Below, piece after piece: positions 9,696-27,039 of a stretch of DNA of 64,000 nt (within the stretch, counting starts at the first letter, position 1; every line of letters begins with the position of its first letter). Where the stretch lies: positions 25,838-89,837 of the forward strand of contig JAFYNR010000003.1 of the NCBI GenBank assembly GCA_017548045.1, read 5' to 3'. Both the position numbers and the translations under genes were made by a program. Under the pieces are notes generated by a model. That model was not told the origin of the DNA. It made no database searches and saw nothing but the letters and a program-made list of their open reading frames with translations. The stretch comes from Clostridia bacterium (GTDB taxonomy: Bacteria; Bacillota; Clostridia; Oscillospirales; Acutalibacteraceae).

Positions 9696-11624
9696 ATGAA
9701 GAAGAACATATATCTTGTTCAGGTCAGTGCGGTATACGGCGAATCAGTCAAAACCGCCTATCTTCCCTATGCATCGGGCTGCCTTGCGGCTTATGCGTGG
9801 AACGATAAAAGGATTGCTGATAACTGTAACCTGGGAAGATTCATTTTCATAAGAGAAAACATTGACCGTGCCATCGACTCATTGGAGGATCCTTTCCTCG
9901 TGGGCTTTTCTTCTTACATCTGGAATATGGAATACAACCGCGAATTTGCACGCAGACTCAAAGAAAAACATCCCGGGTGCATCGTAGTATTCGGCGGCCA
10001 TAACGTTGACCCTCACGGCAAAGACCTTGCCGATATGCCCTGGTGCGATATCGTTATTCACGGAGAGGGCGAAAAGCCCTTCAAGGAACTTTTGCTTGCT
10101 TTTATCGGCAACGGTTCACTTGCAGAAGTCAGTAATATTTCATACAGAAGCAACGATGAAATTGTCAATACCAAAAAAACACCTCCCTGCAATATTGAAG
10201 ATTTCCCATCACCCTATCTTTCGGGTTATTTTGATTCAATCATTGAGGATTCGGGAATTTCACCCTCCGTTATATGGGAAACAAACCGCGGCTGTCCCAA
10301 CCGCTGTGCATTCTGCGATTGGGGTGCACTCAAGGCAAAGGTCCGTCATTTCCCTATCGAGAGAATAAAAGCCGAGCTTGATTGGATGGTAAAAAACAAA
10401 GTCGAGTACGTTTACTGTGCCGATGCGAATTTCGGTCTTTTTCCCAGAGATACCGAGATTGCAGACCTTATCATAAAGTACCGTGATACCTACGGATATC
10501 CGCAGGTTTTCAAAACAAATTACACCAAAAACCGTGATGACGTTGTTTTTGAAATAAGCAGCAAGCTTATAAATAAAGGAATCGGCAAGTCGCCTACGCT
10601 TTCGTTTCAGAGCCTTTCTCCCATGGTGCTCAGCGCAATCGGCAGAAGCAATATGGAGCTTGAGCATTTCAAGAATCTGATGATAAAATATAACAGCGCA
10701 GGTGTACCCGTTTATTCGGAGCTTATTCTCGGTTTGCCCGAAGAAACTTACCATTCCTTTGCTGACGGAATATGCACTCTGCTTGATTGCGGTCAGCATA
10801 CCTGCATAGGCATTTATCCCTGCGAGCTTTTACCAAATTCCCTGCTTGCAGACCCTTCCTATATGGAGAAATACGGCATTAAAACAGTTCGTACACCCTT
10901 CAGTCAGTACCACTGCAAACCTGCTGCCGAAGATGTAAGCGAGCTTTCGAACATTATTGTTTCAACAAACTCAATGAGCATTGATGATTGGCGCCGTTCA
11001 TTTATCTTTTCAATCTGCGTCCAGGCATTCCACAATCTCGGTCTTACCCGTGCCGTTGCAATATATCTCAGGCATGAAAAAAATATTTCATACAAAGATT
11101 TCTATGAAAAGCTCATAGAATGGCTTGATAATCAGCCCGACGATTCAGTAAGCGGCGGTGCATATGCACATCTTAAACAGCTTACCCTGGATGTCAGCGA
11201 AGGCAGAGGTACGTTCTCGGTGCCGTACGGTGAAAACGAGATCATCACCTGGAGCTTTGAGGAGTATCTTTTCTTCCGCATTTCAAAAGAACTCAGCCGA
11301 TTTTTCGATGAGCTCACCGAATTCATTAAATTGTTCGGTATTGAAGAAAGCATTTCCGACTCACTTATTTCATACCAGAAAAGCATTATCAGACAGCCCT
11401 TTGAGAGCAGTGTGACAATCACTTCCGAATATGATTTTTACGGTTACTTCAGCCGTATTTATTCGGGCGAATATGCACCGCTCGAAAAGGAATATACAGC
11501 TGTTATTTCCGAAGGCATTGAGCTTAACGGTTGGGATGAATATGCACGAATCTGCATCTGGTACGGCAGACGCGATGACGCACAGCTCAACACAGGAAAA
11601 AAGAATACTATCAAGAGGTTATAA
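9696..11624 (+). CDS. Cobalamin-binding-domain radical SAM protein, copy 1
   Basis: A 642-residue member of the B12-binding radical SAM class. Residues about 1-170 form a Rossmann-like cobalamin-binding domain (VGFSSYIWNMEYN, CIVVFGGHNVDPHG, DIVIHGEGEKPF). It lacks the DxHxxG motif, as many class members do. The radical SAM domain follows with CPNRCAFC (C200, C204, C207) ligating a 4Fe-4S cluster, then DWG. YSELILGLPEETY is the usual late-barrel segment. The C-terminal 250 residues are not recognisable. Enzymes of this class do B12-dependent methylations or ring and chain rearrangements, and the substrate here is unknown. The stop codon overlaps the start of a full-length paralogue by 1 nt. 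Confidence 0.88.
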   Translation: MKKNIYLVQVSAVYGESVKTAYLPYASGCLAAYAWNDKRIADNCNLGRFIFIRENIDRAIDSLEDPFLVGFSSYIWNMEYNREFARRLKEKHPGCIVVFGGHNVDPHGKDLADMPWCDIVIHGEGEKPFKELLLAFIGNGSLAEVSNISYRSNDEIVNTKKTPPCNIEDFPSPYLSGYFDSIIEDSGISPSVIWETNRGCPNRCAFCDWGALKAKVRHFPIERIKAELDWMVKNKVEYVYCADANFGLFPRDTEIADLIIKYRDTYGYPQVFKTNYTKNRDDVVFEISSKLINKGIGKSPTLSFQSLSPMVLSAIGRSNMELEHFKNLMIKYNSAGVPVYSELILGLPEETYHSFADGICTLLDCGQHTCIGIYPCELLPNSLLADPSYMEKYGIKTVRTPFSQYHCKPAAEDVSELSNIIVSTNSMSIDDWRRSFIFSICVQAFHNLGLTRAVAIYLRHEKNISYKDFYEKLIEWLDNQPDDSVSGGAYAHLKQLTLDVSEGRGTFSVPYGENEIITWSFEEYLFFRISKELSRFFDELTEFIKLFGIEESISDSLISYQKSIIRQPFESSVTITSEYDFYGYFSRIYSGEYAPLEKEYTAVISEGIELNGWDEYARICIWYGRRDDAQLNTGKKNTIKRL

Positions 11625-13543
11625 TGAAGAATTTATATCTGATACAGGTTGACGTTTCTGCCTGCACGGGTGCAGAGCAGGCTTACCTGCCTTACACGGC
11701 AGGTGTACTTGCGGCAAATGCATTCCGCAGCGAAACCGTCAAGGAAAACTATTGCTTCAAGGAATTTATTTTCCTTCGTGAAGATATTGACAAGGTCATA
11801 TCGAGAATGGATAATCCTGCAGTTGCAGGCTTCTCAAATTACTGCTGGAACACAGAGTATAACAAACTTCTTGCAGAAAAAATCAAAGATAAATGGCCCG
11901 ATTGTATTATTGTTTTCGGCGGCCATAACGTTCCTGAAAACAAAAGCTTTCTCGAAGAATTTTCATACATTGACATTCTGTGTCACGGCGAAGGCGAAGA
12001 AACCTTCCGTGATGTGCTGACCGCCGCACTCAGCGGAGATTTTTCAACAGTTTCTAACATTTCATACAGAGAAGGTACTGAAATTATCAGCACCGAAAGA
12101 ACGGTTCCCGGCGAAATCGCAGACTATCCTTCACCATACGTTGAAGGATGGTTTGACGGCATTATCGAAAATCATCCCGAAATAACATTCAACGCCATTC
12201 TTGAAACAAGCAGAGGCTGCCCTCATAACTGTGCATATTGTGACTGGGGCTTACTCAAGTCAAAAACCAGACTTTTCCCTATGGAAAGAGTTCTCGGGGA
12301 AATCAGATGGATGTCGGAGCATAAAATCGCATTTGTATGGGGTGCTGATGCAAACTTCGGTCTTTTTGACCGTGACCTTGAAATTGCACAGGCTCTTGTC
12401 AACGCAAAAGAAAGCACAGGATATCCCGAGCGTATGCGAATGAACTATTCAAAAACAAATTTTGAAAACGTATTTGCAATCGTAAAGAAGTTCAAGGAAT
12501 GTGAATTTGACCGCATAGGCGCAACTCTTTCGTTCCAGAGTCTTTCGCCCGAGGTTCTTCACAACATCGGCAGAAAAAATATGTCCCTCGACTTTTTCAA
12601 AAATCTCCTCACCCGTTACAACCAGAACGGTATGAAGGCTTATTCCGAACTCATTCTCGGTCTGCCCGGTGAAACCTACGAAAGCTTCATAAGGGGTATC
12701 GGTCAGCTTTTTGAAATCGGTCAGCACTATGTTTTCGAGGTATACAGCTGCATTCTCCTCCCCAATTCAATTATGGGTCAGAGCGATTTTGTTGATCGCT
12801 TCGGGCTGAAAACCGTGCGTTCCGAAATCATCCGTCACCATTTCATAACCGAGGCATTTGCCGTGCCGGAATACAACAATATTATAGTCGAAACAGAGTC
12901 AATGTCCCGCGAAATGTGGATAAGGGCTACAACGTTTTACTATCTTGCCAAAGCGTTCCACGGCAACGGTCTTCTCAGAGCATTTGCGATATGGCTTCAT
13001 TACGAAAAAAACATTCCGTATGAAAAATTCTATGACGGAACTATCGATTACTTTGAAAACAATCCCGGTCTTTTCGTTTCGGGAATTTACCGTGAAATAA
13101 AATCTCACGCCGATGAAATTTCACAGGGCAAAACCAACAGAAAGCTCGTCTATGACCCTGCAGGCGATGCTGTATGGGATGACCATGAATATCTTGTATT
13201 GAATTATCTTTCGGATAAAAACTTGTTCTTTGAAGAAATGTTGCCTTATCTGAAAAGCTATGACATTCCCGAAGATATTTTCGAAAATCTTTTTGTATAT
13301 CAGAAAAACATTCTCCGTACCCCTTGCGATGAAAGCTCCGAAATAAAGCTGAATTATGACATTCACGGTTATCTTCAGAATGTGTACGTCAACGAATATA
13401 AGCCTCTCTGTAAGCTTTCTCACACATTAAAGCTCACCGATACGGATGTAATGCGCGATTGGCCCAGCTTCGGAAAGTTTGTTGTCTGGTACGGCAGAAT
13501 GGGCTGGAAATCATACAAAGACAAGGTTGAAATAACCGAATAA
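11624..13543 (+). CDS. Cobalamin-binding-domain radical SAM protein, copy 2
   Basis: A 639-residue protein collinear with the preceding gene along its whole length, so a tandem duplicate that has since diverged. It keeps the cobalamin-domain segments (VAGFSNYCWNTEYN, CIIVFGGHNVPENK, DILCHGEGEETF), the cluster motif CPHNCAYC (C199, C203, C206) followed by DWG, and the segment YSELILGLPGETYESF. The same unassigned C-terminal region ends in FVVWYGRMGW, matching ICIWYGRR of copy 1. Its ATG shares a base with the stop of copy 1 (TAATG), so the two are probably made in equal amounts and could form a heterodimer or act in sequence. A strong terminator follows, and no precursor peptide or methyltransferase partner is adjacent. 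Confidence 0.88.
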   Translation: MKNLYLIQVDVSACTGAEQAYLPYTAGVLAANAFRSETVKENYCFKEFIFLREDIDKVISRMDNPAVAGFSNYCWNTEYNKLLAEKIKDKWPDCIIVFGGHNVPENKSFLEEFSYIDILCHGEGEETFRDVLTAALSGDFSTVSNISYREGTEIISTERTVPGEIADYPSPYVEGWFDGIIENHPEITFNAILETSRGCPHNCAYCDWGLLKSKTRLFPMERVLGEIRWMSEHKIAFVWGADANFGLFDRDLEIAQALVNAKESTGYPERMRMNYSKTNFENVFAIVKKFKECEFDRIGATLSFQSLSPEVLHNIGRKNMSLDFFKNLLTRYNQNGMKAYSELILGLPGETYESFIRGIGQLFEIGQHYVFEVYSCILLPNSIMGQSDFVDRFGLKTVRSEIIRHHFITEAFAVPEYNNIIVETESMSREMWIRATTFYYLAKAFHGNGLLRAFAIWLHYEKNIPYEKFYDGTIDYFENNPGLFVSGIYREIKSHADEISQGKTNRKLVYDPAGDAVWDDHEYLVLNYLSDKNLFFEEMLPYLKSYDIPEDIFENLFVYQKNILRTPCDESSEIKLNYDIHGYLQNVYVNEYKPLCKLSHTLKLTDTDVMRDWPSFGKFVVWYGRMGWKSYKDKVEITE

Positions 13544-14200: not shown

Positions 14201-14229
14201 TTGACTTTGTCCTTTCTTTTATATATAAT
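14201..14229 (+). promoter_or_regulatory. Promoter of the branched-chain 2-oxoacid/acyl-CoA operon
   Basis: TTGACT (14201-14206), 17-bp spacer, TATAAT (14224-14229). The leader of about 84 nt shows no T-box or obvious terminator hairpin, which argues against leucine attenuation. Confidence 0.75.
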
Positions 14230-14319
14230 ATAATGAACCTTATAGTGCATAAGTGTTAATCTAACGCAAAAGACGCATTATTCCGTTGGAAAATGCTGTT
14301 CAAAAAAGGAGAATTCAGT

Positions 14320-15732
14320 ATGAAAAAAATCACAATCGCAGACGCCACGCTCAGAGAGTGCGCACGAAAGGGCGATATCGCCCTCAGCTTCAAGGAGAAA
14401 ATCGAAATTGCAAAGCTTCTTGATAAGCTCAACATCGACGTTATTGAAGCTGCACCCGTCACAGACGAAAAAATTGACACACTCGTATTGCGCACTATAA
14501 GCCCTCTCCTAATGAACAGCATTCTATCCTGCCCCGTCGGCAGTACGGTTGAAGAAGCAGACAGAGCCATGAAATCAATTTCAGGTGCAAAGAAGCCCCG
14601 ACTTCTCGTTTCGCTTCCCGTGTCGGCAGTTCAGATGGAATATTTTTCACATAAAAAGCCTGCTCAGATGCTTGAGCTTATCGCAACTCTTACCGCACAC
14701 TGTGCTTCAATCTGCAGTGACGTTGAGTTTGCCGCCGTTGACGCAACAAGAGCGGACAAAGCTTATCTTTTTGAAGCCATAAAAACTGCAATTGAAAACG
14801 GTGCAAAAACAGTTACCGTATGCGACACCGCCGGAGCACTTCTCCCTTCGGAATTTGCAACGCTTATTGAAGAAATCTGCGAAGCTGTTCCCGCCGCAAA
14901 GGAGGTTAACCTCTGTGCAGAGTGCAGCAATGCGCTTGATATGGCAAATGCCTGTGTATTTGCTTGCATCGGTGCAGGTGCAACACAGATCAAAACCTGC
15001 ATCGGAAGCGAAGCGCTCCCCAATCTTGAGCACGTTATGAAGGCACTGCAGGTAAAGGGTCACACTCTTGACGTAAGTTATGGTGTGAACTCAATGGCAA
15101 TCAATCACTCTGCAAACCAGATTCTCAGAATGACAAGCGAAACTCACGGCGGCTCAGTCCTCGGCAATGCAGCTTCAACAGTTTCGGCAAACGTACTTCT
15201 TGACGATACCGCTGATATTGCAAAAGTCAGCAAAGCAATAGTCACTCTCGGCTACGAGCTTTCTGAAGACGATACATCAAAAGTGTTTGAAGCATTCAAA
15301 AACGTTTCCGCAAAGAAGCAGGTCGGCGCAAAAGAACTTGACGCTCTCATTGCTACCGTTGCACATCAGGTACCTCCCACGTACAGAGTTCAGAGTTATG
15401 TTCTCAATTCGGGAAACCTTATTTCCTCAACGGCAAACATCGTTCTTGAAAAAGGCAGCAGAACACTTAAAGCCGTAGGTATGGGTGACGGCCCCGTTGA
15501 TGCCGCTTTCCGTACAATCGAGCAGATTATAGGACATCACTACGAGCTTGATGATTTCCAGATTCAGTCTGTTACCGAGGGCCGTGAGGCTATGGGTGAG
15601 GCTCTTGTAAAGCTTCGTTCAAACGGCAAGCTTTATTCGGGCAAGGGTATTTCAACAGACATTATCGGTGCAAGCATCATCGCTTACGTAAATGCTTTGA
15701 ACAAAATCGTTTATGAGGAGGAAAACGTATGA
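14320..15732 (+). CDS. 2-Isopropylmalate-synthase-like protein with altered metal site
   Basis: This 470-residue protein has the two-part architecture of LeuA. Residues 1-280 are an HMGL-like TIM barrel (ADATLREC at 7-14, CDTAGALLP near 169). The linker has the LeuA segment KKQVGAKELDALI, and residues about 350-465 form a well-conserved LeuA dimer/allosteric domain (YRVQSYVLNSG, GDGPVDAAFRTIE, GKGISTDIIGAS). The barrel is unusual: the HxH of the HCHND metal motif is replaced by C199-A-E201, and the GIGERAGN segment by IGSEALPN. Either it catalyses something other than the normal Claisen condensation or it is a regulatory homologue. The start is ATG 14320, with AAGGAG 8 nt upstream. It is first in the operon and overlaps the next gene by 4 nt. 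Confidence 0.8.
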   Translation: MKKITIADATLRECARKGDIALSFKEKIEIAKLLDKLNIDVIEAAPVTDEKIDTLVLRTISPLLMNSILSCPVGSTVEEADRAMKSISGAKKPRLLVSLPVSAVQMEYFSHKKPAQMLELIATLTAHCASICSDVEFAAVDATRADKAYLFEAIKTAIENGAKTVTVCDTAGALLPSEFATLIEEICEAVPAAKEVNLCAECSNALDMANACVFACIGAGATQIKTCIGSEALPNLEHVMKALQVKGHTLDVSYGVNSMAINHSANQILRMTSETHGGSVLGNAASTVSANVLLDDTADIAKVSKAIVTLGYELSEDDTSKVFEAFKNVSAKKQVGAKELDALIATVAHQVPPTYRVQSYVLNSGNLISSTANIVLEKGSRTLKAVGMGDGPVDAAFRTIEQIIGHHYELDDFQIQSVTEGREAMGEALVKLRSNGKLYSGKGISTDIIGASIIAYVNALNKIVYEEENV

Positions 15733-18236
15733 AGCTCTCTTTCTCAACAAACGGCTGGCAGGAGCTTTCCTGGGCTGAATTCATAAACACCGCCAACGAC
15801 CTCGGCTTCAGCGGTATTGAAATACACAATATAACAGACGAAAGATTTACAGGCACCGATGCTCCCTTCAGCAAGGCAAATTCATCGGCAACCGTACACA
15901 AGCTTCTTGAAAATTCAATTTCAATTCCCTGTATTGACACATACTGCAACATCGCAGATGAAAAAATTGCTGACGAAGGATTTGAAGAAATCGCAACGGC
16001 AATCGAAATTGCCGCAAGAATCAGATGCCCCTACGTCAGAATTCACGCATACGCAACAGGTGCTGAAAAGAAAGCGGAGGATGCGGCGGTAATTTCGCTT
16101 ATCGGCAGACTTATTGAAAAAGCCGAGCAGGATAACGTAGCGCTTCTCGTTGAAACCGTCGGTCTTTATTCGGACACATCAAGGCTCCGCGACCTTCTCA
16201 ACATTTTTGCCTGCGACTACCTTGCGGCACTCTGGGATATCAATCATCCTTACAGAGATTTCGGTGAAGAGCCCGATACAACAATCACCAACCTGGGTGC
16301 TTACATCAAGCACGTTCATATCAAGGACTCGGCTGTTGAAGAAGGCGATATCAAATATAAACTCGTAGGCGAAGGAACACTTCCCATCGGCACAATGATC
16401 CGCGCCCTGGGCTCGGTTAACTATGACGGCTTCCTTTCATACGAGTGTCAGCCCGATAAAATGGAGGATTTCGGCATAGCCGATATCGTATTCCCCCACT
16501 TTGTCAACACAATCGCACTTTATGACAACAAGAAAAAAAGCGAAGAACTTCTTTGCACCAACAGAAGCGGCTCAGGCAAATTTGTTTGGGAAAAGTACAA
16601 GCTTATCAACAAAACATTTTCACAAGTGCTTGACACGATGGTTGAAAAGTTCCCCGATCAGCTTGCATACAAATACACCACTCTTGATTACACAAGAACA
16701 TATTCCCAGTTCCGTGACGATGTTGACACCTGCGCAAGAGCCCTTATTGCCCTCGGTGTAAAGCCCGGTGACAAGGTTGCCGTGTGGCTCACAAACCTCC
16801 CCCAATGGTTCATCACCTTCTGGGCAACCACCAAAATCGGCGCTGTTCTCGTTACAGTCAATACAGCCTATAAAATTCACGAAATCGAGTATCTTCTCAG
16901 ACAGTCCGATACACACACACTTGTCACAATTGAGTCCTGCCTCGATTCAAACTATGCTCAGTCTATCGCAGAGCTTTGTCCCGAGCTTGAAGTTGCGGTA
17001 CCCGGAAAGCCTCTCCATTGCAGAAGGCTCCCCTTCCTTCGCAATATCATCACGGTAGGCTACCGTCAGAAGGGATGCCTCACCTGGGAAGAAGCAATGG
17101 ATATGTCTGTACGTGTTCCTATTGAGGAGGTCTACCGCAGAGCGGCGGCTGTTGACTGCCATGACGTTGCAAATATGCAGTATACATCAGGTACAACAGG
17201 ATTCCCCAAGGGCGTTATGCTGACTCACTATAATATCGTTAACAACGGTAAAACAATCGGTGACAGAATGGATATGTCCACCGCAGACCGTATGATGATT
17301 CAGGTTCCTATGTTCCACTGCTTCGGCATGGTTCTTTCGATGACGTCAATGATGACTCACGGCGGCACCCTTTGCCCCCTGCCCTATTTCTCGGCAAAAT
17401 CATCGTTGGCTTGCATAAATCAAGAACACATCACCTGCTTCAACGGCGTTCCCACAATGTTCATTGCAATGTTCCAGCATGAGGATTTTGCAAAAACAGA
17501 TTTCTCGTATATGAGAACGGGTATTATGGCAGGCGCAAACTGTCCTCCCGACCTTATGAAGCGCGCCGCAGCAGAAATGAATATGACTGAAATTCTCAGT
17601 GTTTACGGCGAAACGGAAGCTTCTCCCGGCTGTACAATGGGCGAAGTCAATGAATCACTTGAAGACAGAACTGAAACCGTCGGCAGTGCATTCCCCAATG
17701 TTGAATGCAAAATCATTGATCCCGAAACCGGCGAAGATTTACCCGACGGAGAAAACGGCGAATTCGTTGCACGCGGCTACAATATCATGAAGGGTTATTA
17801 CAAAATGCCCAAGGCAACCGAGGCTGCCATTGACAAAGACGGATGGCTTCACAGCGGTGATATTGCTTGCAGAAGACCCGACGGATATTATCTTATCACC
17901 GGCAGACTTAAAGATATGATTATCCGCGGCGGTGAAAATATTTATCCCAGAGAAATTGAGGAATTCATTTTCACACACGAATACGTTCAGGACGTTCAGG
18001 TTATCGGCGTACCCGACAAGAGATACGGCGAAGAAATTATGGCTTGCGTTATCCTCAAGGAAGGCTATTCAATGACAGAGGATGAAATGAAGGATTACAT
18101 CAAATCCCATATGGCAAGACATAAGGTGCCCAGATACATCGAATTTGTTGAGGACTTCCCCAAAAATGCGGCAGGCAAAATCCTTAAATACAAAATGAGA
18201 GAAGATTTCGCAAAGAAATTGGGTCTTTCAAAATAA
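15729..18236 (+). CDS. Fusion: xylose-isomerase-like TIM barrel + AMP-dependent acyl-CoA ligase
   Basis: One uninterrupted 835-residue frame joins two enzymes. Residues about 1-265 are an AP-endonuclease-2/xylose-isomerase-like TIM barrel (LSFSTNGWQELSW, GFSGIEIHN, LVETVG, LAALWDINHPYRDFG, IKHVHIKD), with the usual Glu/Asp/His metal ligands of sugar isomerases and epimerases. After a linker with SEELLCTNRSGSGKF, residues about 295-835 are an ANL-family ligase. It has the P-loop YTSGTTGFPKG near 485, YGETEAS, the hinge region TGRLKDMIIRGGENIYP and the catalytic Lys in NAAGKILK near 817. It would activate a carboxylic acid to acyl-AMP and then acyl-CoA. The start overlaps the LeuA-like stop (ATGA). 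The fusion partner is not one I know. Confidence 0.85.
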   Translation: MKLSFSTNGWQELSWAEFINTANDLGFSGIEIHNITDERFTGTDAPFSKANSSATVHKLLENSISIPCIDTYCNIADEKIADEGFEEIATAIEIAARIRCPYVRIHAYATGAEKKAEDAAVISLIGRLIEKAEQDNVALLVETVGLYSDTSRLRDLLNIFACDYLAALWDINHPYRDFGEEPDTTITNLGAYIKHVHIKDSAVEEGDIKYKLVGEGTLPIGTMIRALGSVNYDGFLSYECQPDKMEDFGIADIVFPHFVNTIALYDNKKKSEELLCTNRSGSGKFVWEKYKLINKTFSQVLDTMVEKFPDQLAYKYTTLDYTRTYSQFRDDVDTCARALIALGVKPGDKVAVWLTNLPQWFITFWATTKIGAVLVTVNTAYKIHEIEYLLRQSDTHTLVTIESCLDSNYAQSIAELCPELEVAVPGKPLHCRRLPFLRNIITVGYRQKGCLTWEEAMDMSVRVPIEEVYRRAAAVDCHDVANMQYTSGTTGFPKGVMLTHYNIVNNGKTIGDRMDMSTADRMMIQVPMFHCFGMVLSMTSMMTHGGTLCPLPYFSAKSSLACINQEHITCFNGVPTMFIAMFQHEDFAKTDFSYMRTGIMAGANCPPDLMKRAAAEMNMTEILSVYGETEASPGCTMGEVNESLEDRTETVGSAFPNVECKIIDPETGEDLPDGENGEFVARGYNIMKGYYKMPKATEAAIDKDGWLHSGDIACRRPDGYYLITGRLKDMIIRGGENIYPREIEEFIFTHEYVQDVQVIGVPDKRYGEEIMACVILKEGYSMTEDEMKDYIKSHMARHKVPRYIEFVEDFPKNAAGKILKYKMREDFAKKLGLSK

Positions 18237-18269
18237 AACCAGATTAAATTTACCGAAAGGGTGTTATAA

Positions 18270-19334
18270 ATGTTAAACATTAAGATTGAGAGAACAACCG
18301 CTCCCAAGCAGAAGCCCGACGAAAACAATCTCGGCTTCGGCAAAATTTTCACAGACCATATGTTCATTATGAACTACACCGAGGGTCAGGGTTGGCACGA
18401 CCCCAGAATCGTTCCCTACGGCAACCTTACACTTTCACCTGCCTGTATGGTTTTCCACTACGGTCAGGAAATGTTTGAAGGTCTTAAGGCTTACAAGGGT
18501 GCTGACGGCGAAGTTCGTCTTTTCAGACCCGAAATGAACGCAAAAAGAACAAACGATACCAACAAGCGTCTTTGCATTCCCGAGCTTCCCGTTGAGGATT
18601 TTGTTCAGGCTGTAAGCGAAATTGTAAGAGTTGATAAGGATTGGATTCCCTCGGCTCCCGGCACTTCACTTTACATCCGTCCCTTCATTATTGCAACAGA
18701 CGATTTCCTTGGTGTTGCACCTTCAAAGACATATCTTTTCATCGTTATCCTTTCACCCTCAGGCGCTTACTATTCAAGCGGTCTTGCTCCCGTAGGTATC
18801 TGGATTGAGGACGACTACGTAAGAGCTGTTAAGGGCGGTATGGGCTTTGCAAAGACAGGCGGTAACTACGCAGCCAGCCTTGCAGCACAGGTAAAGGCTC
18901 ACGACGACGGCTACTCACAGGTTCTCTGGCTTGACGGTGTTGAGAGAAAGTATATTGAAGAAGTTGGCGCAATGAACATCTTCTTCAAGATCAACGGCAC
19001 AATCGTTACTCCCATGCTCAACGGCAGTATCCTTCCCGGTATCACAAGAAACTCTGTTATCGAGCTTTGCAAGAGCTGGGGTCTTCCCGTTGAAGAAAGA
19101 AAGATTTCCGTTGAAGAGCTTCTTGAAGCACAGAAGAACGGCACACTTGAGGAATGCTTCGGCACAGGTACAGCTGCTGTTATTTCACCCGTCGGCAAGC
19201 TCCGCTACAAGGATGACGTTATGACCATCAACGGCGGCAACATCGGTGAAATCAGCCAGAAACTTTACGATACCGTAACCGGTATTCAGGGCGGAACCTG
19301 CGAAGATAAATTCGGCTGGGTAACCGTACTTTAA
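18270..19334 (+). CDS. ilvE: Branched-chain amino acid aminotransferase
   Basis: A 354-residue class IV PLP aminotransferase of the BCAT2/eukaryotic-like length class. It interconverts Leu, Ile and Val with their 2-oxoacids using glutamate/2-oxoglutarate. Diagnostic segments are FHYGQEMFEGLKAYK near residue 65, LYIRPF, the PLP lysine in FAKTGGNYAASL, the phosphate-binding YIEEVGAMNIFF, and EECFGTGTAA. It is the third gene of the operon, 33 nt after the fusion gene, with GAAAGGGTG upstream of the ATG. Its place beside a 2-oxoisovalerate-type oxidoreductase shows which 2-oxoacids that complex is likely to use. Confidence 0.95.
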   Translation: MLNIKIERTTAPKQKPDENNLGFGKIFTDHMFIMNYTEGQGWHDPRIVPYGNLTLSPACMVFHYGQEMFEGLKAYKGADGEVRLFRPEMNAKRTNDTNKRLCIPELPVEDFVQAVSEIVRVDKDWIPSAPGTSLYIRPFIIATDDFLGVAPSKTYLFIVILSPSGAYYSSGLAPVGIWIEDDYVRAVKGGMGFAKTGGNYAASLAAQVKAHDDGYSQVLWLDGVERKYIEEVGAMNIFFKINGTIVTPMLNGSILPGITRNSVIELCKSWGLPVEERKISVEELLEAQKNGTLEECFGTGTAAVISPVGKLRYKDDVMTINGGNIGEISQKLYDTVTGIQGGTCEDKFGWVTVL

Positions 19335-19340
19335 TTCACT

Positions 19341-20036
19341 ATGGAAAGCAAAAGAATAACTCTTTTTGCAGGTCATTACGGCAGCGGCAAAACAAACATT
19401 GCCGTCAATTACGCACTCAGGCTCAAGGTGAAATACGACAAGGTTGTTATTGCCGACCTTGATATCGTAAACCCCTATTTCCGTTCAAAGGACAGCGAAA
19501 AACAGCTTGAAGCAAGAGGAATACATCTTATTTCGTCTGAATATGCAAACACAAACGTTGACGTGCCCGCAATGCCGTCGGAAGCATATTCAATTATTGA
19601 CGACAAATCAATCAGAGCCGTAATCGATGTGGGCGGTGATGACAGAGGCGCACTTGCAATGGGCAGATACGCCCCTGCCATTCTCAGTGAAAATGATTAC
19701 GAAATGTTGCTTGTTATCAACAAGTACAGACCTCTCACCCGTGACTGTGCTTCAACCCTTGCGGTTATGAATGAAATCGAAACCGCCTGCGGAATGAAAT
19801 TTACGGGAATTATCAACAATTCAAATCTGGGTGACGAAACAACAGCAGAAGACGTAACATCTTCTGCGGCGTATGCCGATGAGATTGCAAACGCAACAGG
19901 TCTGCCGATAAGAATGACCACTGTAAAAGAAGAATTATACGATACACTTAAAGAAAAAGTTATCAACTGCACCCCGATAAAACTTTACGTTAAGCAATCG
20001 TGGGCAAAACAGGAGGAAGATTTATGGCAAAAGTAA
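19341..20036 (+). CDS. ParA/MinD-like P-loop ATPase of unknown role
   Basis: A 231-residue SIMIBI-class ATPase. The Walker A is GHYGSGKTNIAVN at the N-terminus, followed by VVIADLDIVNPYFRS (switch I-like Asp) and AVIDVGGDDRGA (Walker B-like). It has no membrane segment and no iron-sulfur cysteine pair of the Mrp/ApbC type. It starts 6 nt after ilvE and its end overlaps the ferredoxin gene by 13 nt, so it is tightly coupled to the oxidoreductase genes. Maturation, cofactor insertion or metabolic sensing for that complex are possible roles, but this is only inferred from position. Confidence 0.75.
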   Translation: MESKRITLFAGHYGSGKTNIAVNYALRLKVKYDKVVIADLDIVNPYFRSKDSEKQLEARGIHLISSEYANTNVDVPAMPSEAYSIIDDKSIRAVIDVGGDDRGALAMGRYAPAILSENDYEMLLVINKYRPLTRDCASTLAVMNEIETACGMKFTGIINNSNLGDETTAEDVTSSAAYADEIANATGLPIRMTTVKEELYDTLKEKVINCTPIKLYVKQSWAKQEEDLWQK

Positions 20037-20230
20037 CTTTTAACACCGACCTTTGCAAGGGCTGCGGTCTTTGCGTCGGCGCTTGCCCCAAGAAAATTGT
20101 GGCACTGCTTAAAGATGAAATTAACGCCAAGGGATATCATCCCGCAGGCATCACAGACCAGTCCGCTTGCATCGGCTGTGCATTCTGCGCAACAATGTGC
20201 CCCGACTGTGTTATCACTGTTGAAAAGTAA
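20024..20230 (+). CDS. Ferredoxin (2x 4Fe-4S), delta subunit of the 2-oxoacid oxidoreductase
   Basis: A 68-residue bacterial ferredoxin with two cluster motifs, CKGCGLCVGACP (about residues 10-21) and CIGCAFCATMCP (about 47-58). It passes electrons from the TPP enzyme to free ferredoxin. The start is ATG 20024, supported by AGGAGG with a 7-nt spacer inside the end of the ATPase gene; the in-frame ATG at 20000 lacks such support. It lies 11 nt before the alpha-subunit gene, the usual order in four-subunit VOR/KOR enzymes. Confidence 0.93.
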   Translation: MAKVTFNTDLCKGCGLCVGACPKKIVALLKDEINAKGYHPAGITDQSACIGCAFCATMCPDCVITVEK

Positions 20231-20241
20231 GGAGAAGAATT

Positions 20242-21312
20242 ATGGCTGAAAAAGTTTTGATGAAAGGTAACGAAGCCCTTGCGGAAGCTGCTATAATGGC
20301 AGGTTGCCGTCATTACTTCGGATACCCCATTACCCCTCAGACTGAAATTGCCGCATATATGGCAAAAAGAATGCCCGTTATCGGCGGAACCTTCCTTCAG
20401 GCTGAAAGCGAGGTTGCCGCAATCAATATGATTTACGGTGCAGCTGCGGCAGGCAAAAGAGCAATGACCTCAAGCTCAAGCCCCGGAATTGCACTTAAGA
20501 GCGAAGGTATTTCATACCTTGCAGGTTCAGACCTTCCCGCACTTATCATCAACGTTCAGAGAGGCGGTCCCGGACTCGGCGGTATCCAGCCCTCACAGTC
20601 AGACTACTTCCAGGCAACAAAGAGTGCAGGCCACGGCGACTTCAAGCTCATCGTTCTTGCACCCGCATCGGTTCAGGAAATGGTTGACCTTACATTCAAA
20701 GGCTTTGACCTTGCCGATAAATACAGAATGCCCGCAATGCTTCTTTCAGACGGCACAATGGGTCAGATGATGGAGCCCGTTTCACTTGATATGGGTGAAG
20801 TTAAAGAATATGACAAGTCTTCATGGGCAGCTTGCGGCACAAAGTGCGAGCGTGAACACAACGTTGTTAACTCTCTGTTCATTCAGCCCGAAGAGCTTGA
20901 AAAATATAACTTTGAGCGTTACGAGCGTTACGCACAGATTGAAGCAAACGAAGTTATGTATGATGAATATAAAATGGAAGATGCTGAAATCTGTATCGTA
21001 GCATACGGCGTTGCTGCCCGTGTTTCACAGAATGCTATTGACAAGGCACGTGAGCAGGGCATCAAGGTTGGTATGATAAGACCCATCACACTCTGGCCCT
21101 TCCCCAAGGCTGTTCTCAATGCCGCCGCAGATAAGGTTAAGGCATTTATCAGCGTTGAGCTTTCAATGGGTCAGATGATTGAAGACGTTGAGCTTTCAAT
21201 CCGTTGCAAAAAGCCCGTTCTTCTCTGCAACCGCGTAGGCGGTATGATTCCCACCACAGAGGACGTACTTAATTCTATCAACAAAGCAAATTCAGTTGGA
21301 GGTGACAAATAA
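20242..21312 (+). CDS. vorB: 3-Methyl-2-oxobutanoate:ferredoxin oxidoreductase, alpha subunit (VorB type)
   Basis: A 356-residue pyruvate-ferredoxin-oxidoreductase-type subunit carrying the pyrimidine-binding and transketolase C-terminal-like domains. GNEALAEAAIMAGCRHYFGY and PITPQTEIAAYM open the domain. SEVAAINMIYGAAAAGKRAMT and SSSPGIALKSEGISYLAGSD match VorB/KorA, and the C-terminal half begins near AEICIVAYGVAARV. The complex oxidatively decarboxylates branched 2-oxoacids to acyl-CoA and CO2 with ferredoxin, and it is reversible with low-potential ferredoxin. VorB rather than KorA is preferred because of the adjacent ilvE and acyl-CoA ligases. Substrate range is not proven by sequence. 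GGAG lies upstream, and it overlaps the beta gene by 1 nt. Confidence 0.92.
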   Translation: MAEKVLMKGNEALAEAAIMAGCRHYFGYPITPQTEIAAYMAKRMPVIGGTFLQAESEVAAINMIYGAAAAGKRAMTSSSSPGIALKSEGISYLAGSDLPALIINVQRGGPGLGGIQPSQSDYFQATKSAGHGDFKLIVLAPASVQEMVDLTFKGFDLADKYRMPAMLLSDGTMGQMMEPVSLDMGEVKEYDKSSWAACGTKCEREHNVVNSLFIQPEELEKYNFERYERYAQIEANEVMYDEYKMEDAEICIVAYGVAARVSQNAIDKAREQGIKVGMIRPITLWPFPKAVLNAAADKVKAFISVELSMGQMIEDVELSIRCKKPVLLCNRVGGMIPTTEDVLNSINKANSVGGDK

Positions 21313-22064
21313 TGATAGTTTTTGAAAAACCCAAGGCACTTGCAGACGTGCCCCTTCATTATTGCCCCGGCTGCACACACGGCATTATTCACCGCCTTGT
21401 TGCCGAAGTTATTGATGAGCTCGGCATTGAAGGCAGAACAGTAGGTGTTGCTCCCGTAGGCTGTTCGGTATTTGCATATAACTATTTTAACTGCGATATG
21501 ATTGAAGCAGCTCACGGCAGAGCTCCCGCAGTTGCAACAGGCGTTAAGCGTTCACTCCCCGAAAACATTGTTTTCACATATCAGGGTGACGGCGACCTTG
21601 CCGCTATCGGTACTGCCGAAACAGTCCACTCAGCTGCAAGAGGTGAAAACATCACAATCATTTTTGTTAACAACGCCATTTACGGTATGACAGGCGGTCA
21701 GATGGCTCCCACTACCCTGCCCGGCCAGATTACACAGACCTCACCCTATGGCAGAAACCCTGAGCAGGTAGGTCTTCCCGTTAAGGTTTGCGAGCTTCTT
21801 TCAAATGTTGACGGCGCAACATACCTTGAAAGAGTTGCAGTCAACAATGTAAAAAATGTAAAGAACGCAAAGAAGGCAATCAAGAAGGCTTTCCAGAATC
21901 AGCTTGAAGGTAAAGGCTTCTCTCTTGTTGAAGTTCTTTCAACCTGTCCCACAAACTGGGGTCTCAAACCCGATAAAGCACTTGAATGGCTTGAAGAAAA
22001 TATGATTCCTTATTACCCCCTTGGTGTTTATAAGGATAATACAGCAGAAAAGGAGGCCGAATAA
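21312..22064 (+). CDS. 2-Oxoacid:ferredoxin oxidoreductase, beta (TPP-binding) subunit
   Basis: A 250-residue TPP-binding subunit. HYCPGCTHGIIHRL near residue 14 holds the conserved Cys pair motif, APVGCSVFAYNYF follows, and the thiamine-diphosphate/Mg motif is GDGDLAAIG with NNAIYGMTGGQ. It forms the active site with the VorB-type subunit. The start overlaps its stop (TAATG) and the gamma gene begins 2 nt after its own stop, so the subunits are co-translated in order. It probably acts on 3-methyl-2-oxobutanoate and related branched 2-oxoacids, by context. Confidence 0.93.
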   Translation: MIVFEKPKALADVPLHYCPGCTHGIIHRLVAEVIDELGIEGRTVGVAPVGCSVFAYNYFNCDMIEAAHGRAPAVATGVKRSLPENIVFTYQGDGDLAAIGTAETVHSAARGENITIIFVNNAIYGMTGGQMAPTTLPGQITQTSPYGRNPEQVGLPVKVCELLSNVDGATYLERVAVNNVKNVKNAKKAIKKAFQNQLEGKGFSLVEVLSTCPTNWGLKPDKALEWLEENMIPYYPLGVYKDNTAEKEAE

Positions 22065-22066
22065 TT

Positions 22067-22597
22067 ATGACACATGAAATACTTCTTGCAGGCTTCGGCG
22101 GTCAGGGCATCCTTTTCTCCGGCAAATTCCTTGCTTATGACGGTCTTCTTGAAGACCGTGAAGTAAGCTGGCTCCCCTCATACGGCCCCGAAATGAGAGG
22201 CGGTACATGTAACTGCTCAATCATTCTCAGCGATACAAAAATCGGCTCACCCATTGTTTCAAACCCCAACGTTCTTGTTGCAATGAATCTGCCTTCACTT
22301 GACAAATTTGAAGGCGCAGCAGTTCCCGGCGCAAAAATCTTTGTTGACAGTTCACTTGTTGAGCGCAAGGTTGAAAGGGATGACGTTGAAGTGTATTACA
22401 TTCCCGCAACAAAACTTGCTTCAGATGAAAATCTTCCCGGTCTTGCAAATATGATTATGATCGGTCACGTTATCGCAAAGGCAGGCGTTATGCCCTACGA
22501 AAACGTTGAAACAACAATGAAGAAGCTTGTTCCTGCCAAAAAGCAGAATCTTATTGAGCTTAACATCAAAGCGGTTGAGCTTGGCTACAAATATTAA
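22067..22597 (+). CDS. 2-Oxoacid:ferredoxin oxidoreductase, gamma subunit
   Basis: A 176-residue pyruvate/ketoisovalerate oxidoreductase catalytic-domain protein. ILLAGFGGQGILFSGKFLAY at the N-terminus and SWLPSYGPEMRGGTCNCSI are signatures of the gamma domain, which helps bind CoA. With the ferredoxin, alpha and beta genes it completes a four-subunit enzyme of normal composition. The next gene, a regulator, follows after 24 nt with its own ribosome site and no terminator, so transcription continues. Confidence 0.93.
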   Translation: MTHEILLAGFGGQGILFSGKFLAYDGLLEDREVSWLPSYGPEMRGGTCNCSIILSDTKIGSPIVSNPNVLVAMNLPSLDKFEGAAVPGAKIFVDSSLVERKVERDDVEVYYIPATKLASDENLPGLANMIMIGHVIAKAGVMPYENVETTMKKLVPAKKQNLIELNIKAVELGYKY

Positions 22598-22621
22598 TTA
22601 AAACAGTTAGGAGAAACCCAC

Positions 22622-23170
22622 ATGCTTGAATTAAAAGAAATTGGCCTGCGAGTTGCTTCCCTGCGTGATACCTGCGGTCTTACATCCGCAGAAATGGCTG
22701 AAAAGCTTGAAATTTCCGAGGAAAACTACATTGCTTTTGAGCATGGTGAGTATGACTTTGCCATAAGCACACTTAACAATATTGCACTTATCCTCGGCGT
22801 TGATATCCTTGATATTATCAGCGGTGAATCCCCCAGACTCACATCCTGCACAGTTGTTAAAAAAGGCAGAGGTTATGTTGTTAACAGAAACCCCGGCTAT
22901 GAATTTTCACACCTTGCATATACCTTCCGCAACAAGAAGGCTGAGCCCTTCCTTGTTACAATCGACCCTTCGGGCAATCCTCCCGTAATGGACGAGCACG
23001 AAGGTCAGGAATTTGACTATGTTCTTTCAGGCAGCCTTCACCTTTATATCGGTGATATCTGTTATGAACTCAATGAGGGTGACAGCGCATATTTCGATTC
23101 CACAATTCCTCATGCTCACAAAAACGTGGGCGACACTCAGGCGCAGTTCATTGCACTTGTGCTTAAATAA
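22622..23170 (+). CDS. XRE-family helix-turn-helix/cupin regulator
   Basis: A 182-residue two-domain regulator. Residues 7-62 are a lambda-repressor-like HTH (GLTSAEMAEKLEISEENYIAFEHGE). Residues about 100-182 are a cupin barrel with EGQEFDYVLSGSLHLYIGD, YELNEGDSAYFDSTIPHA and a final His; these supply the usual ligand pocket. Proteins of this build often sense small metabolites and control neighbouring genes. Here it lies between the oxidoreductase genes and an acyl-CoA ligase, so a branched acid or acyl-CoA is a reasonable effector, but none is shown. AGGAG lies 8 nt before the ATG. Confidence 0.88.
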   Translation: MLELKEIGLRVASLRDTCGLTSAEMAEKLEISEENYIAFEHGEYDFAISTLNNIALILGVDILDIISGESPRLTSCTVVKKGRGYVVNRNPGYEFSHLAYTFRNKKAEPFLVTIDPSGNPPVMDEHEGQEFDYVLSGSLHLYIGDICYELNEGDSAYFDSTIPHAHKNVGDTQAQFIALVLK

Positions 23171-23199
23171 GGATAACTAAAAAATCAGGAGTCGGAATA

Positions 23200-24882
23200 A
23201 TGGCTATTTATGAAAAATTTATAGGCAGATCAAGAGATTCATTTGTTTCTCTTAAAGACTGTCAGGAAAACTTTAAGATTACATATGAGCAGAACTTTAA
23301 TTTTGCTTATGATGTAATAGATGTGCTCGGTACAGAAAAGCCCGATAAGCTTGCTCTCCTCTATGTTTCAAACGAACAGGAAGAAAAGCGATTCACATTC
23401 GGCGATATGAAGCGTCTTTCAGATAAGGCAGCTAACTATTTTGTGTCGCAGGGTGTAAAGAAGGGCGACCCCGTACTTCTCATCCTCAAAAGAAGCTATC
23501 TTTTCTGGGTTATCACTCTTGCGCTGAACAAAATCGGTGCAATTATGGTACCCGCTTCAAATATGCTCAAGGGCAAAGATTACGTTTACCGCTGTAACAA
23601 GGCTAAGATAAAATATGCTGTTATTACGGGTGACGATAACTGCACAGAGTATTTCGACGACAGAAAAGACGAATACGAAACCATCGAAAAGAAGTTTGTT
23701 ACAAAGCACAAGTCTGTTGAGGGCTGGATTGACTTTGAAGAAGGCTTTGAAAGCGCAAGCGAGAATTGGACAAGACCTACGGGCGATGCCGACACAACGG
23801 TTGATGACACAATGATTATCAACTTCTCATCGGGCACAACCGGTTACCCTAAAATCATTGCACACGATTTCAAGTATCCCCTCGGTCATATTATGACGGG
23901 TGTTTTCTGGCACAGAGTTGTTGACGGCGGAATGCATTTCACCGTTTCGGATTCTGGCTGGGCAAAATCACTCTGGGGTAAATACTACGGTCAGTGGATG
24001 GGCGAAACTGCAAACTTCGTTTATGATTTTGACAAGTTTGACGGTGCGGATATTCTTTCAAAGCTTGAAAAGTACCGCATCACCACCTTCTGCGTTCCTC
24101 CCACGATGTACCGCCTTATGCTTCAGAATGATGTAAGCAAATATGACCTTTCATCAATCACGCACTGCTGTACCGCAGGTGAAGCACTCAATGCGGATAT
24201 CTTCAACAAATGGAAGGAAGCAACGGGTCTTGAAATTCACGAAGGCTTCGGTATGAGCGAAACTCCCGTAAGCATCTGCACGCTTTATCCCTGGACAAAG
24301 CCCGTACCCGGCGCAATCGGTTTCCCCGCACCCGGCCTTAAGGTTCATATAATTGACGAAGAAGGCAACCACTGCCAGAGAGGTACAATCGGCGAAATCT
24401 GCATCAAGGCAGAATCACCTGAGGCACATCCCTGCGGTGTTGTTGCAAGCTATAATTTCAGCGATGAAGATACCGCAGAGGCATACAGAGGCGGCTTCTT
24501 CCACACAGGCGACCTTGCATACAGAGATGAGCAGGGAAGATTTGTTTACTTCGGCAGAAACGACGATGTTATCAAATCATCAGGCTACAGAATCGGACCC
24601 TTTGAAATTGAAAGTGTTATGCTTGAGCATCCTTCTGTTCTTGAAGTTGCGGTTACGGGTGTCCCCGACCCCGTAAGAGGCTTCGTTGTTAAGGCAACGG
24701 TTGTTCTTCGACCCGGATTTGAAGGCTCACCCGAGCTTATCAAGGAGCTTCAGACATATGTCAAGACTAACACTGCGCCTTACAAATACCCCAGAATTAT
24801 TGAGTTTGTGGACGAGCTTCCCAAAACCTTCAGCGGTAAAGTAAGACGAGTTGAAATCCGTCAGAACGATTCAAATAAATAA
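23200..24882 (+). CDS. AMP-dependent acyl-CoA synthetase (medium/short-chain type)
   Basis: A 560-residue ANL-superfamily ligase similar to ACSM-type and acetyl-CoA-synthetase-like enzymes. The P-loop is INFSSGTTGYPKIIAH near residue 207; other motifs are HEGFGMSETPVSI, the hinge FGRNDDVIKSSGYRIGPFEIE and the catalytic Lys in KTFSGKVRRVE near the C-terminus. It would convert a short, medium or branched carboxylic acid to its CoA thioester with ATP to AMP. Last gene of the operon, 29 nt after the regulator, with a strong terminator just after the stop. With the fused ligase upstream, the operon encodes two acid-activating enzymes, perhaps of different specificity. Confidence 0.9.
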   Translation: MAIYEKFIGRSRDSFVSLKDCQENFKITYEQNFNFAYDVIDVLGTEKPDKLALLYVSNEQEEKRFTFGDMKRLSDKAANYFVSQGVKKGDPVLLILKRSYLFWVITLALNKIGAIMVPASNMLKGKDYVYRCNKAKIKYAVITGDDNCTEYFDDRKDEYETIEKKFVTKHKSVEGWIDFEEGFESASENWTRPTGDADTTVDDTMIINFSSGTTGYPKIIAHDFKYPLGHIMTGVFWHRVVDGGMHFTVSDSGWAKSLWGKYYGQWMGETANFVYDFDKFDGADILSKLEKYRITTFCVPPTMYRLMLQNDVSKYDLSSITHCCTAGEALNADIFNKWKEATGLEIHEGFGMSETPVSICTLYPWTKPVPGAIGFPAPGLKVHIIDEEGNHCQRGTIGEICIKAESPEAHPCGVVASYNFSDEDTAEAYRGGFFHTGDLAYRDEQGRFVYFGRNDDVIKSSGYRIGPFEIESVMLEHPSVLEVAVTGVPDPVRGFVVKATVVLRPGFEGSPELIKELQTYVKTNTAPYKYPRIIEFVDELPKTFSGKVRRVEIRQNDSNK

Positions 24883-24918
24883 AAACAGAGGCTATTCAGT
24901 ACGAATAGCCTCTGTTTT
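24882..24918. terminator. Bidirectional terminator between the branched-chain operon and glnN
   Basis: A 15-bp perfect stem AAAACAGAGGCTATT/AATAGCCTCTGTTTT with a 7-nt loop and T-rich flanks on both strands. Confidence 0.85.
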
Positions 24919-27010: not shown

Positions 27011-27039
27011 ACTCATCACTCCTAATTTTAAGACAATTC

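Follow-up and report, generated by a model that had tools for sequence, protein, structure and literature searches.

The gene at positions 14320-15732 of a 64,000-nucleotide window from a Clostridia bacterium (the window being the whole stretch of DNA analysed: assembly GCA_017548045.1, contig JAFYNR010000003.1, forward strand 25,838-89,837) encodes a 470-residue relative of 2-isopropylmalate synthase (LeuA), here given our own label LeuX. Its sequence and genomic setting argue that LeuX is probably a LeuA-derived pseudoenzyme, acting as leucine sensor and regulatory subunit for TIM-ACS, a fusion of a xylose-isomerase-like TIM barrel with an acyl-CoA synthetase (ACS) encoded immediately downstream. 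LeuX has most likely lost the ability to condense ketoisovalerate with acetyl-CoA. The isopropylmalate route appears to be missing from its host, which most likely builds leucine, valine and isoleucine out of branched short-chain acids. LeuX proteins constitute an apparently undescribed protein family of gut bacteria.

Active-site loss and inverted conservation in LeuX

LeuX has the two-domain architecture of short-form LeuA (PRK00915/TIGR00973 type). Pfam recognizes an HMGL-like domain at residues 4-247 (103.5 bits, cut-off 29) and a C-terminal LeuA_dimer domain (105.6 bits, cut-off 24.9). The closest solved structures are isopropylmalate synthases, with 3ewb at the top and 3rmj, 3eeg and 6e1j also among them. 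LeuA is the nearest NCBIfam match as well, although all cut-offs are missed (TIGR00973, leuA_bact, 261.2 of 598.7 bits; NF002086, 294 of 532).

The fate of the active site was followed by aligning 117 distinct LeuX (121 proteins from 120 loci, some contigs being present twice under two identifiers) with 19 catalytic-type LeuA selected among the matches in the same order. Four signatures of short-form LeuA are no longer intact in LeuX: the HxH pair, DTTLRDGEQ, GxGERxGN and HxSGIHQHG. The metal-site histidines are replaced by E201 and S203 in the window's LeuX. The pair is kept in none of the 117 LeuX, 116 of which lack both histidines, whereas all 19 LeuA carry both. Fourteen residue types, never histidine, occupy the first position and 15 the second (serine in 81), and no replacement residue takes over the site family-wide. 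The earlier note on this DNA had read CAECS at the HCHND motif of LeuA; the residues aligned there are ECSNA, a register shift of two. Its conclusion about the metal site is unchanged, because both histidines are missing in the corrected register too. The loss of GxGERxGN, also reported there, is borne out: the window's LeuX reads CIGSEALPN with a short deletion, and the GER columns, occupied in 19/19 LeuA, are gaps in 117/117 LeuX. The HxSGIHQHG segment has no equivalent in the window's LeuX, and its GIHQHG columns are gapped in all 117. In the DTTLRDGEQ segment, the aspartate and a threonine are each found in 113 of the 117 and the arginine in 50, with the other positions variable.

Homology to LeuA in both domains could still be taken to mean that LeuX is an isopropylmalate or related synthase that draws its metal ligands from elsewhere. 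This is very unlikely: in addition to the missing pair, no H.H[ND] pattern occurs anywhere in the 117 LeuX, the leuA_bact score of 261 bits falls far below its cut-off, and leuB is nearly absent from LeuX genomes (see below).

Conservation in LeuX is inverted relative to LeuA, the barrel being relaxed and the leucine-binding-type domain tightened. Mean column entropy in the barrel is 1.88 bits in LeuX (1.63 at 19 random rows) versus 1.04 in LeuA, and in the dimer domain 1.00 (0.87 at 19 random rows) versus 1.49. Purifying selection acts on LeuX and is strongest in the dimer domain. For ten pairs of close relatives, the ratio of non-synonymous to synonymous substitution rates (dN/dS) spans 0.057-0.138 over the barrel and 0.013-0.062 over the dimer domain. 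For the window's LeuX against four close relatives the ranges are 0.063-0.135 and 0.013-0.062, values that are approximate because dS is 0.84-1.59 in both domains. Alignment, entropy and dN/dS agree here with the strong conservation of the C-terminal domain that had been noticed earlier. Together, the universal loss of the HxH pair and the low dN/dS argue that LeuX does not reflect chance, an assembly error or decay. A functionless, degenerating relic, to which the relaxed barrel and linker might point, is scarcely credible: dN/dS does not exceed 0.24 in any domain of the ten pairs where dS is estimable (two linker comparisons are saturated), full-length frames persist in 40 of the 42 LeuX genomes of the order, and the partner gene is fixed.

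The regulatory domain finds only weak matches among ligand-bound structures, namely Mycobacterium structures that we take to be leucine-bound (E 0.0012-0.0013) and a Leptospira structure that is presumably isoleucine-bound (E 2.8e-6). Because these matches are weak, the ligand of LeuX is not readable from its residues. In LeuA itself leucine binds in the C-terminal domain, as described in parts of two papers (PMC11057210, PMC10464499), and leucine is the putative ligand considered here.

By its position in the tree, LeuX descends from catalytic short-form LeuA. Among 52 proteins, including 21 LeuX rows (16 randomly drawn), LeuX forms a single clade (support 100/100) within short-form LeuA under a midpoint root. 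The LeuX stem is long (1.1 changes per column), and its precise position inside LeuA is weakly supported (82/68). CimA and long-form LeuA belong to the same superfamily and have a related C-terminal domain; they differ from LeuX in being catalytic by annotation and fall outside the part of the tree that holds LeuX and short-form LeuA, a placement that depends on the midpoint root and concerns two long branches about whose meeting the tree program warns.

Partner gene and leucine pathways of the hosts

The start codon of TIM-ACS overlaps the LeuX stop codon (ATGA) in the window, which suggests translational coupling. TIM-ACS is the next gene on the same strand in 117 of the 120 loci within the tested spacing, from 142 bases of overlap between the open frames to 361 bases between them. 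Two of the remaining loci lie on contigs that end within 213 bases, and in the third (L136) the frames overlap more deeply; TIM-ACS is directly downstream in all 118 testable loci. The synthetase part is in frame with the TIM part in 113 of the 117, and no single-frame fusion of LeuX to TIM-ACS is found among 140 loci. An amidohydrolase-like protein (about 270 residues, judged by eye) lies near TIM-ACS in 26 LeuX loci, for example at 3718-4533 on the minus strand of L047.

TIM-ACS was compared between 105 LeuX-linked fusions and 20 LeuX-less ones, the latter a selection from 41 LeuX-less TIM-ACS genomes, after removal of duplicates and of frames below 780 residues. Residues E142-D170-H197-E239, which we take to be a TIM-domain metal site from a resemblance to sugar epimerases, are intact in 20/20 LeuX-less and 42/105 LeuX-linked fusions, where the replacements are diverse. 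The synthetase is preserved: motif A3 is present in 125/125 fusions, A8 in 124/125 and lysine K817 in 123/125 (103/105 LeuX-linked, with two gaps, and 20/20 LeuX-less). The A10 pattern is matched by 6/125, most fusions carrying methionine at its lysine position.

The two partners also diverge together. Over 100 loci, evolutionary distances of the LeuX barrel correlate with those of the TIM domain at r 0.73, compared with 0.57 for its own dimer domain and 0.62 for the first half of the synthetase. When 60% of the loci are subsampled 200 times, the difference between 0.73 and 0.57 has a central 95% range of 0.09-0.23. Where all genes are present (42 loci), r is 0.75 for the LeuX barrel against the TIM domain and 0.35 for the LeuX barrel against VorB, a subunit of a 2-ketoisovalerate:ferredoxin oxidoreductase (Vor). 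This suggests, rather than proves, that the two barrels touch.

LeuX occurs in 42 of 197 genomes of the window's order, two of which hold fragments only; the full-length proteins are 41-49% identical to that of the window, and catalytic LeuA mostly surfaced in the same search as two partial matches. One genome scored as LeuX-less (G171) carries a fragment resembling the N-terminal part of LeuX on a VorB-bearing contig. Genome G192 has two LeuX loci (C34, C107; L042, L043), each with Vor genes; its contamination estimate of 4% makes two strains possible. Scanning named genomes of bacteria and archaea by pattern returned at least 588 relatives of the window's LeuX, possibly including LeuA, and all of the best 80 of them have a LeuX match. 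Where labelled in the database, the hosts are mostly gut or rumen Clostridia; L138, L139 and L149 are labelled Bacteroidetes or Salinivirgaceae, and L164 Bittarella massiliensis. A phylum-wide draw of 398 genomes (some from the same order) gave three matches passing E 1e-45: the window's own LeuX, a second LeuX (G249) and an ordinary LeuA (G574). Among the genomes sampled, the family is concentrated in the window's order. A full-length candidate from outside the order (L194, 29% identical) was rejected, as its LeuA motifs are normal.

In the order, LeuX and LeuA hardly ever occur together. LeuA of any kind is found in one (G089) of the 42 LeuX genomes and in 130 of the 155 others. This tally counts 55 short-form LeuA over cut-off, a full-length one just under it (G073), four fragments and 72 long-form LeuA detected with a separate model (NF002991). 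The single genome with both compares with 18.3 expected from shuffling labels within families, where none of 20,000 shuffles was as low; this is a fairer test than Fisher's, which ignores kinship. LeuA genomes also occur in 10 of the 13 families that have LeuX, and among the 16 LeuX genomes whose completeness is 95% or more only one has LeuA. Counts for the remaining genes (LeuX versus LeuX-less genomes) are: leuB over cut-off in 2/42 versus 111/155, ilvC in 4 versus 87, VorB over cut-off in 37 versus 86, and TIM-ACS in 42 versus 41, the last scored only where the matching frame reached about 430 residues (shorter frames, as in G073, were omitted). VorB accompanies TIM-ACS in 76/83 genomes versus 47/114 without TIM-ACS. 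Of the 41 genomes with TIM-ACS and no LeuX (fusions L173-L192 among them), 39 have VorB. Exactly one of LeuX and LeuA is present in 78 of the 83 TIM-ACS genomes, both in one and neither in four. The leuC model (TIGR00170) is uninformative, with 0/197 genomes over cut-off and weak matches in 175.

The earlier note had proposed looking for a canonical leuA elsewhere in the genome. None was found in the window's genome (85.7% complete) or in 40 of the 41 other LeuX genomes. The window's genome likewise has no match to leuB (E 1e-60), ilvC (1e-20) or ilvD (0.001), and no ilvB over cut-off; one ilvB-type match of 212.6 bits is possibly another enzyme dependent on thiamine pyrophosphate (TPP). Two sets of LeuA candidates were discarded. 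The only other HMGL-like match in the window's genome (L002) is of the oxaloacetate-decarboxylase/pyruvate-carboxylase-B type (NF006761, 682.5 bits, cut-off 402). Second full-length superfamily proteins in four LeuX genomes (242-255 bits to TIGR00973) all exceed the TIGR00977 cut-off and are thereby citramalate synthases.

Proposed control of TIM-ACS and its alternatives

An acyl-CoA synthetase, a Vor-type oxidoreductase and a branched-chain transaminase all stand together in the window's unit, and the gene content of LeuX hosts fits the isovalerate-carboxylation route to leucine. In the proposed scheme, a branched acid would be converted to its acyl-CoA by TIM-ACS and by a second, MbcS-like synthetase; VorBAC would reductively carboxylate the acyl-CoA to the branched keto acid, which IlvE would aminate. 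Here we infer that a catalytically silent LeuX, in physical complex with TIM-ACS, sets the rate at which isovalerate, the presumed substrate, is activated. When leucine is plentiful it would bind the dimer domain of LeuX, which would then inhibit TIM-ACS or cease to activate it, probably by way of the dead LeuX barrel touching the TIM domain of the fusion. The regulator or leucine-sensor option of the earlier note thereby gains indirect backing from the dead barrel, the hyper-conserved leucine-type domain, the fixed partner gene and the near absence of LeuA.

A more specific and only tentative version holds that the LeuX barrel docks on the TIM-ACS barrel with leucine as the gate, that this freed the second barrel to decay, and that LeuX retains a sensing role of the ancestral LeuA. 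The result would be a double pseudo-barrel governing one live acyl-CoA synthetase within a heteromeric LeuX/TIM-ACS enzyme. Ancestral LeuA would already have sensed leucine for TIM-ACS, and this role would have survived the loss of the isopropylmalate pathway. The presence of exactly one of LeuX and LeuA in 78 of 83 TIM-ACS genomes supports this version.

Several observations weigh against a regulatory LeuX acting on an isovalerate-activating TIM-ACS. One LeuX of the 117 (L044) has a histidine at the second HxH position. The distance correlations may mirror the shared inheritance of adjoining, fast-evolving domains, and the TIM-ACS of the window retains its putative TIM-domain metal site. LeuX-linked and LeuX-less ACS domains differ at just three near-fixed positions, all conservatively, so that the LeuX-linked fusions bear no mark of isovalerate specificity; the nearest solved relatives of the synthetase are fatty-acyl, feruloyl and malonyl synthetases. 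VorB over cut-off is missing from five of the 42 LeuX genomes; one of them (G106) has VorB fragments, and a 98% complete one (G060) has no VorB over cut-off. Separately, G060 (C20, L035) has ilvC and, near LeuX, a 1172-residue frame that is weakly VorB-like (25%). Four LeuX genomes (G016, G025, G061, G087; L205-L208) encode a citramalate synthase and may for that reason keep part of another isoleucine route; leuB over cut-off is found in none of them.

The retention of several barrel residues weighs on the same side and is the chief argument for LeuX being a metal-free enzyme with new chemistry, one that would use its retained acidic residues and Lys113 on the acyl-CoA product of TIM-ACS. D141 and D169 are present in 117/117 LeuX, R144 in 116, E43 in 114 and D8 in 113, and K113 is invariant in LeuX and found in 2 of the 19 LeuA. 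Such an enzyme is nevertheless unlikely. The five retained residues are equally fixed in LeuA and may thus be structural, and K113 occurs in those two LeuA as well. Only 13 of the 59 barrel positions fixed in LeuA (at least 95%) are held at 90% or more in LeuX; of the 21 that LeuX itself fixes at 95% or more, only two, F24 and P100, carry a residue that none of the 19 LeuA has. Conservation is lower in the barrel than in the dimer domain, the opposite of LeuA. The earlier suggestion of new chemistry is further weakened because the two histidine positions hold many different residues.

LeuX could instead be a leucine-responsive regulator of some other target, for example Vor, or of transcription through the helix-turn-helix (HTH)-cupin protein; the VorBAC, IlvE and HTH-cupin genes share the unit in the window and in many relatives. 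This too is improbable, as TIM-ACS alone is fixed (118/118). Strict matches among the 120 loci number 45 for VorB, 44 for VorA and 50 for the P-loop-like protein of the unit, many loci being cut short at contig ends; broader neighbour counts take in weak matches to large pyruvate-oxidoreductase-like frames. VorB, VorA and the P-loop-like protein moreover diverge in concert with one another (r 0.88-0.92 over 42 loci) and more weakly so with LeuX (0.35-0.54).

The nine-gene unit, known systems and implications

The regulatory subunit proposed for TIM-ACS is encoded at the head of nine plus-strand genes spanning 14320-24882 (Table 1), among which the widest intergenic gap, of 205 bases, lies upstream of VorB. 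Promoter-like sites are not enriched in the sequence (18 seen versus 17.5 expected in shuffles), and no T-box or riboswitch leader matched Rfam above threshold in the 64-kb window. For the P-loop-like protein, neither Pfam nor NCBIfam gives a match at E 0.001. The HTH-cupin protein and the second acyl-CoA synthetase, separate in the window, form one frame of 631-868 residues in 46 of 140 loci, often as two tandem copies. A type III glutamine synthetase gene (24926-27019, minus strand) converges on the unit at a common hairpin. Upstream, 9696-13543 encodes two tandem B12-binding radical S-adenosylmethionine proteins, whose nearest NCBIfam match is a KedN5-type C-methyltransferase (270 and 237 bits, cut-off 700).

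Table 1. Positions of LeuX, its sequence landmarks and the neighbouring features in the window
Feature	Position	Strand	Evidence
Sigma-70-like promoter candidate, TTGACT-17-TATAAT, 11/12 consensus	14201..14229	+	consensus match only
Ribosome-binding site GGAG ahead of the LeuX ATG	14308..14311	+	sequence
LeuX, catalytically degenerate LeuA homologue, 470 residues	14320..15732	+	ATG at 14320, stop ending 15732; Pfam, NCBIfam, alignment
DATLRECAR (residues 8-16) for LeuA DTTLRDGEQ; Asp8, Thr10, Leu11, Arg12 retained	14341..14367	+	alignment
Lys113, invariant in 117/117 LeuX (19 LeuA: Thr 11, Ser 4, Lys 2, Glu 2)	14656..14658	+	alignment
ECSNA (E201-C202-S203-N204-A205) at the HxHND metal motif	14920..14934	+	alignment with 19 LeuA
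Lost GxGERxGN segment, residues 229-233	15004..15018	+	alignment
LeuA_dimer (leucine-binding-type allosteric) domain, residues 335-463, best-conserved part of LeuX	15322..15708	+	Pfam, alignment
TIM-ACS, xylose-isomerase-like TIM barrel and acyl-CoA synthetase fusion, 835 residues	15729..18236	+	Pfam, NCBIfam, alignment
IlvE, branched-chain aminotransferase	18270..19334	+	NF009897, 506.8 bits, cut-off 307
231-residue protein, P-loop-like GHYGSGKT, recurrent beside Vor genes in many LeuX loci	19341..20036	+	
VorB, alpha-type subunit, 2-ketoisovalerate:ferredoxin oxidoreductase family	20242..21312	+	NF005507, 548.8 bits, cut-off 399
VorA, TPP-binding beta-type subunit	21312..22064	+	Pfam; under all NCBIfam cut-offs
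VorC, gamma-type subunit	22067..22597	+	Pfam; under all NCBIfam cut-offs
HTH-cupin protein	22622..23170	+	Pfam
Second acyl-CoA synthetase	23200..24882	+	MbcS best NCBIfam match, under cut-off (424.6 of 850 bits)
Terminator-like hairpin, 16-17 pairs, closing the nine-gene unit	24882..24918	both	consensus match only

The synthesis of leucine from isovalerate by rumen bacteria has been reported since the 1960s, according to the part of PMC7356843 that cites Allison (1962, 1966); the same part describes the route as carboxylation of isovalerate followed by amination. The LeuX loci resemble this pathway in that genes to activate acids, for a ketoacid:ferredoxin oxidoreductase and for transamination adjoin LeuX, and in that its hosts are nearly all without LeuA and leuB and are mostly labelled as gut or rumen Clostridia. 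They differ from the pathway as described by the addition of a LeuA-derived control protein, and the substrate of TIM-ACS is putative.

A second likeness is to HisZ, a relative of histidyl-tRNA synthetase. HisZ/HisG(S) is an ATP phosphoribosyltransferase whose regulatory subunit is catalytically silent, as described in part of PMC9734150. In HisZ a non-catalytic protein bearing a feedback site for an amino acid regulates a distinct subunit that does the catalysis in amino-acid supply, and LeuX would do likewise. LeuX resembles HisZ in its descent from an enzyme with loss of catalytic residues, in an effector-type domain kept under selection and in a fixed partner, the last on genetic grounds. 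The folds and the partner are different, and HisZ has an established complex and ligand whereas those of LeuX are proposed from sequence. Regulatory subunits that are pseudoenzymes are already known; one that arose from LeuA and is linked to an acyl-CoA synthetase appears to be new. In the open-licence literature, a limit that makes absence suggestive and not proven, no description of a LeuA pseudoenzyme was found, nor any account of feedback control of the isovalerate route, whether by a LeuA-derived protein or otherwise. No title or abstract opening among open-licence papers on LeuA allostery, the isovalerate route or dead regulatory paralogues concerned LeuX.

Annotation by similarity could name LeuX a 2-isopropylmalate synthase and so assign to its hosts a leucine pathway that is missing from them. 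The position of LeuX beside an acyl-CoA synthetase in more than 100 genomes examined makes feedback control of the isovalerate route directly testable. If the proposed role is correct, LeuX would be a clear example of feedback control that has survived the loss of its parent enzyme.

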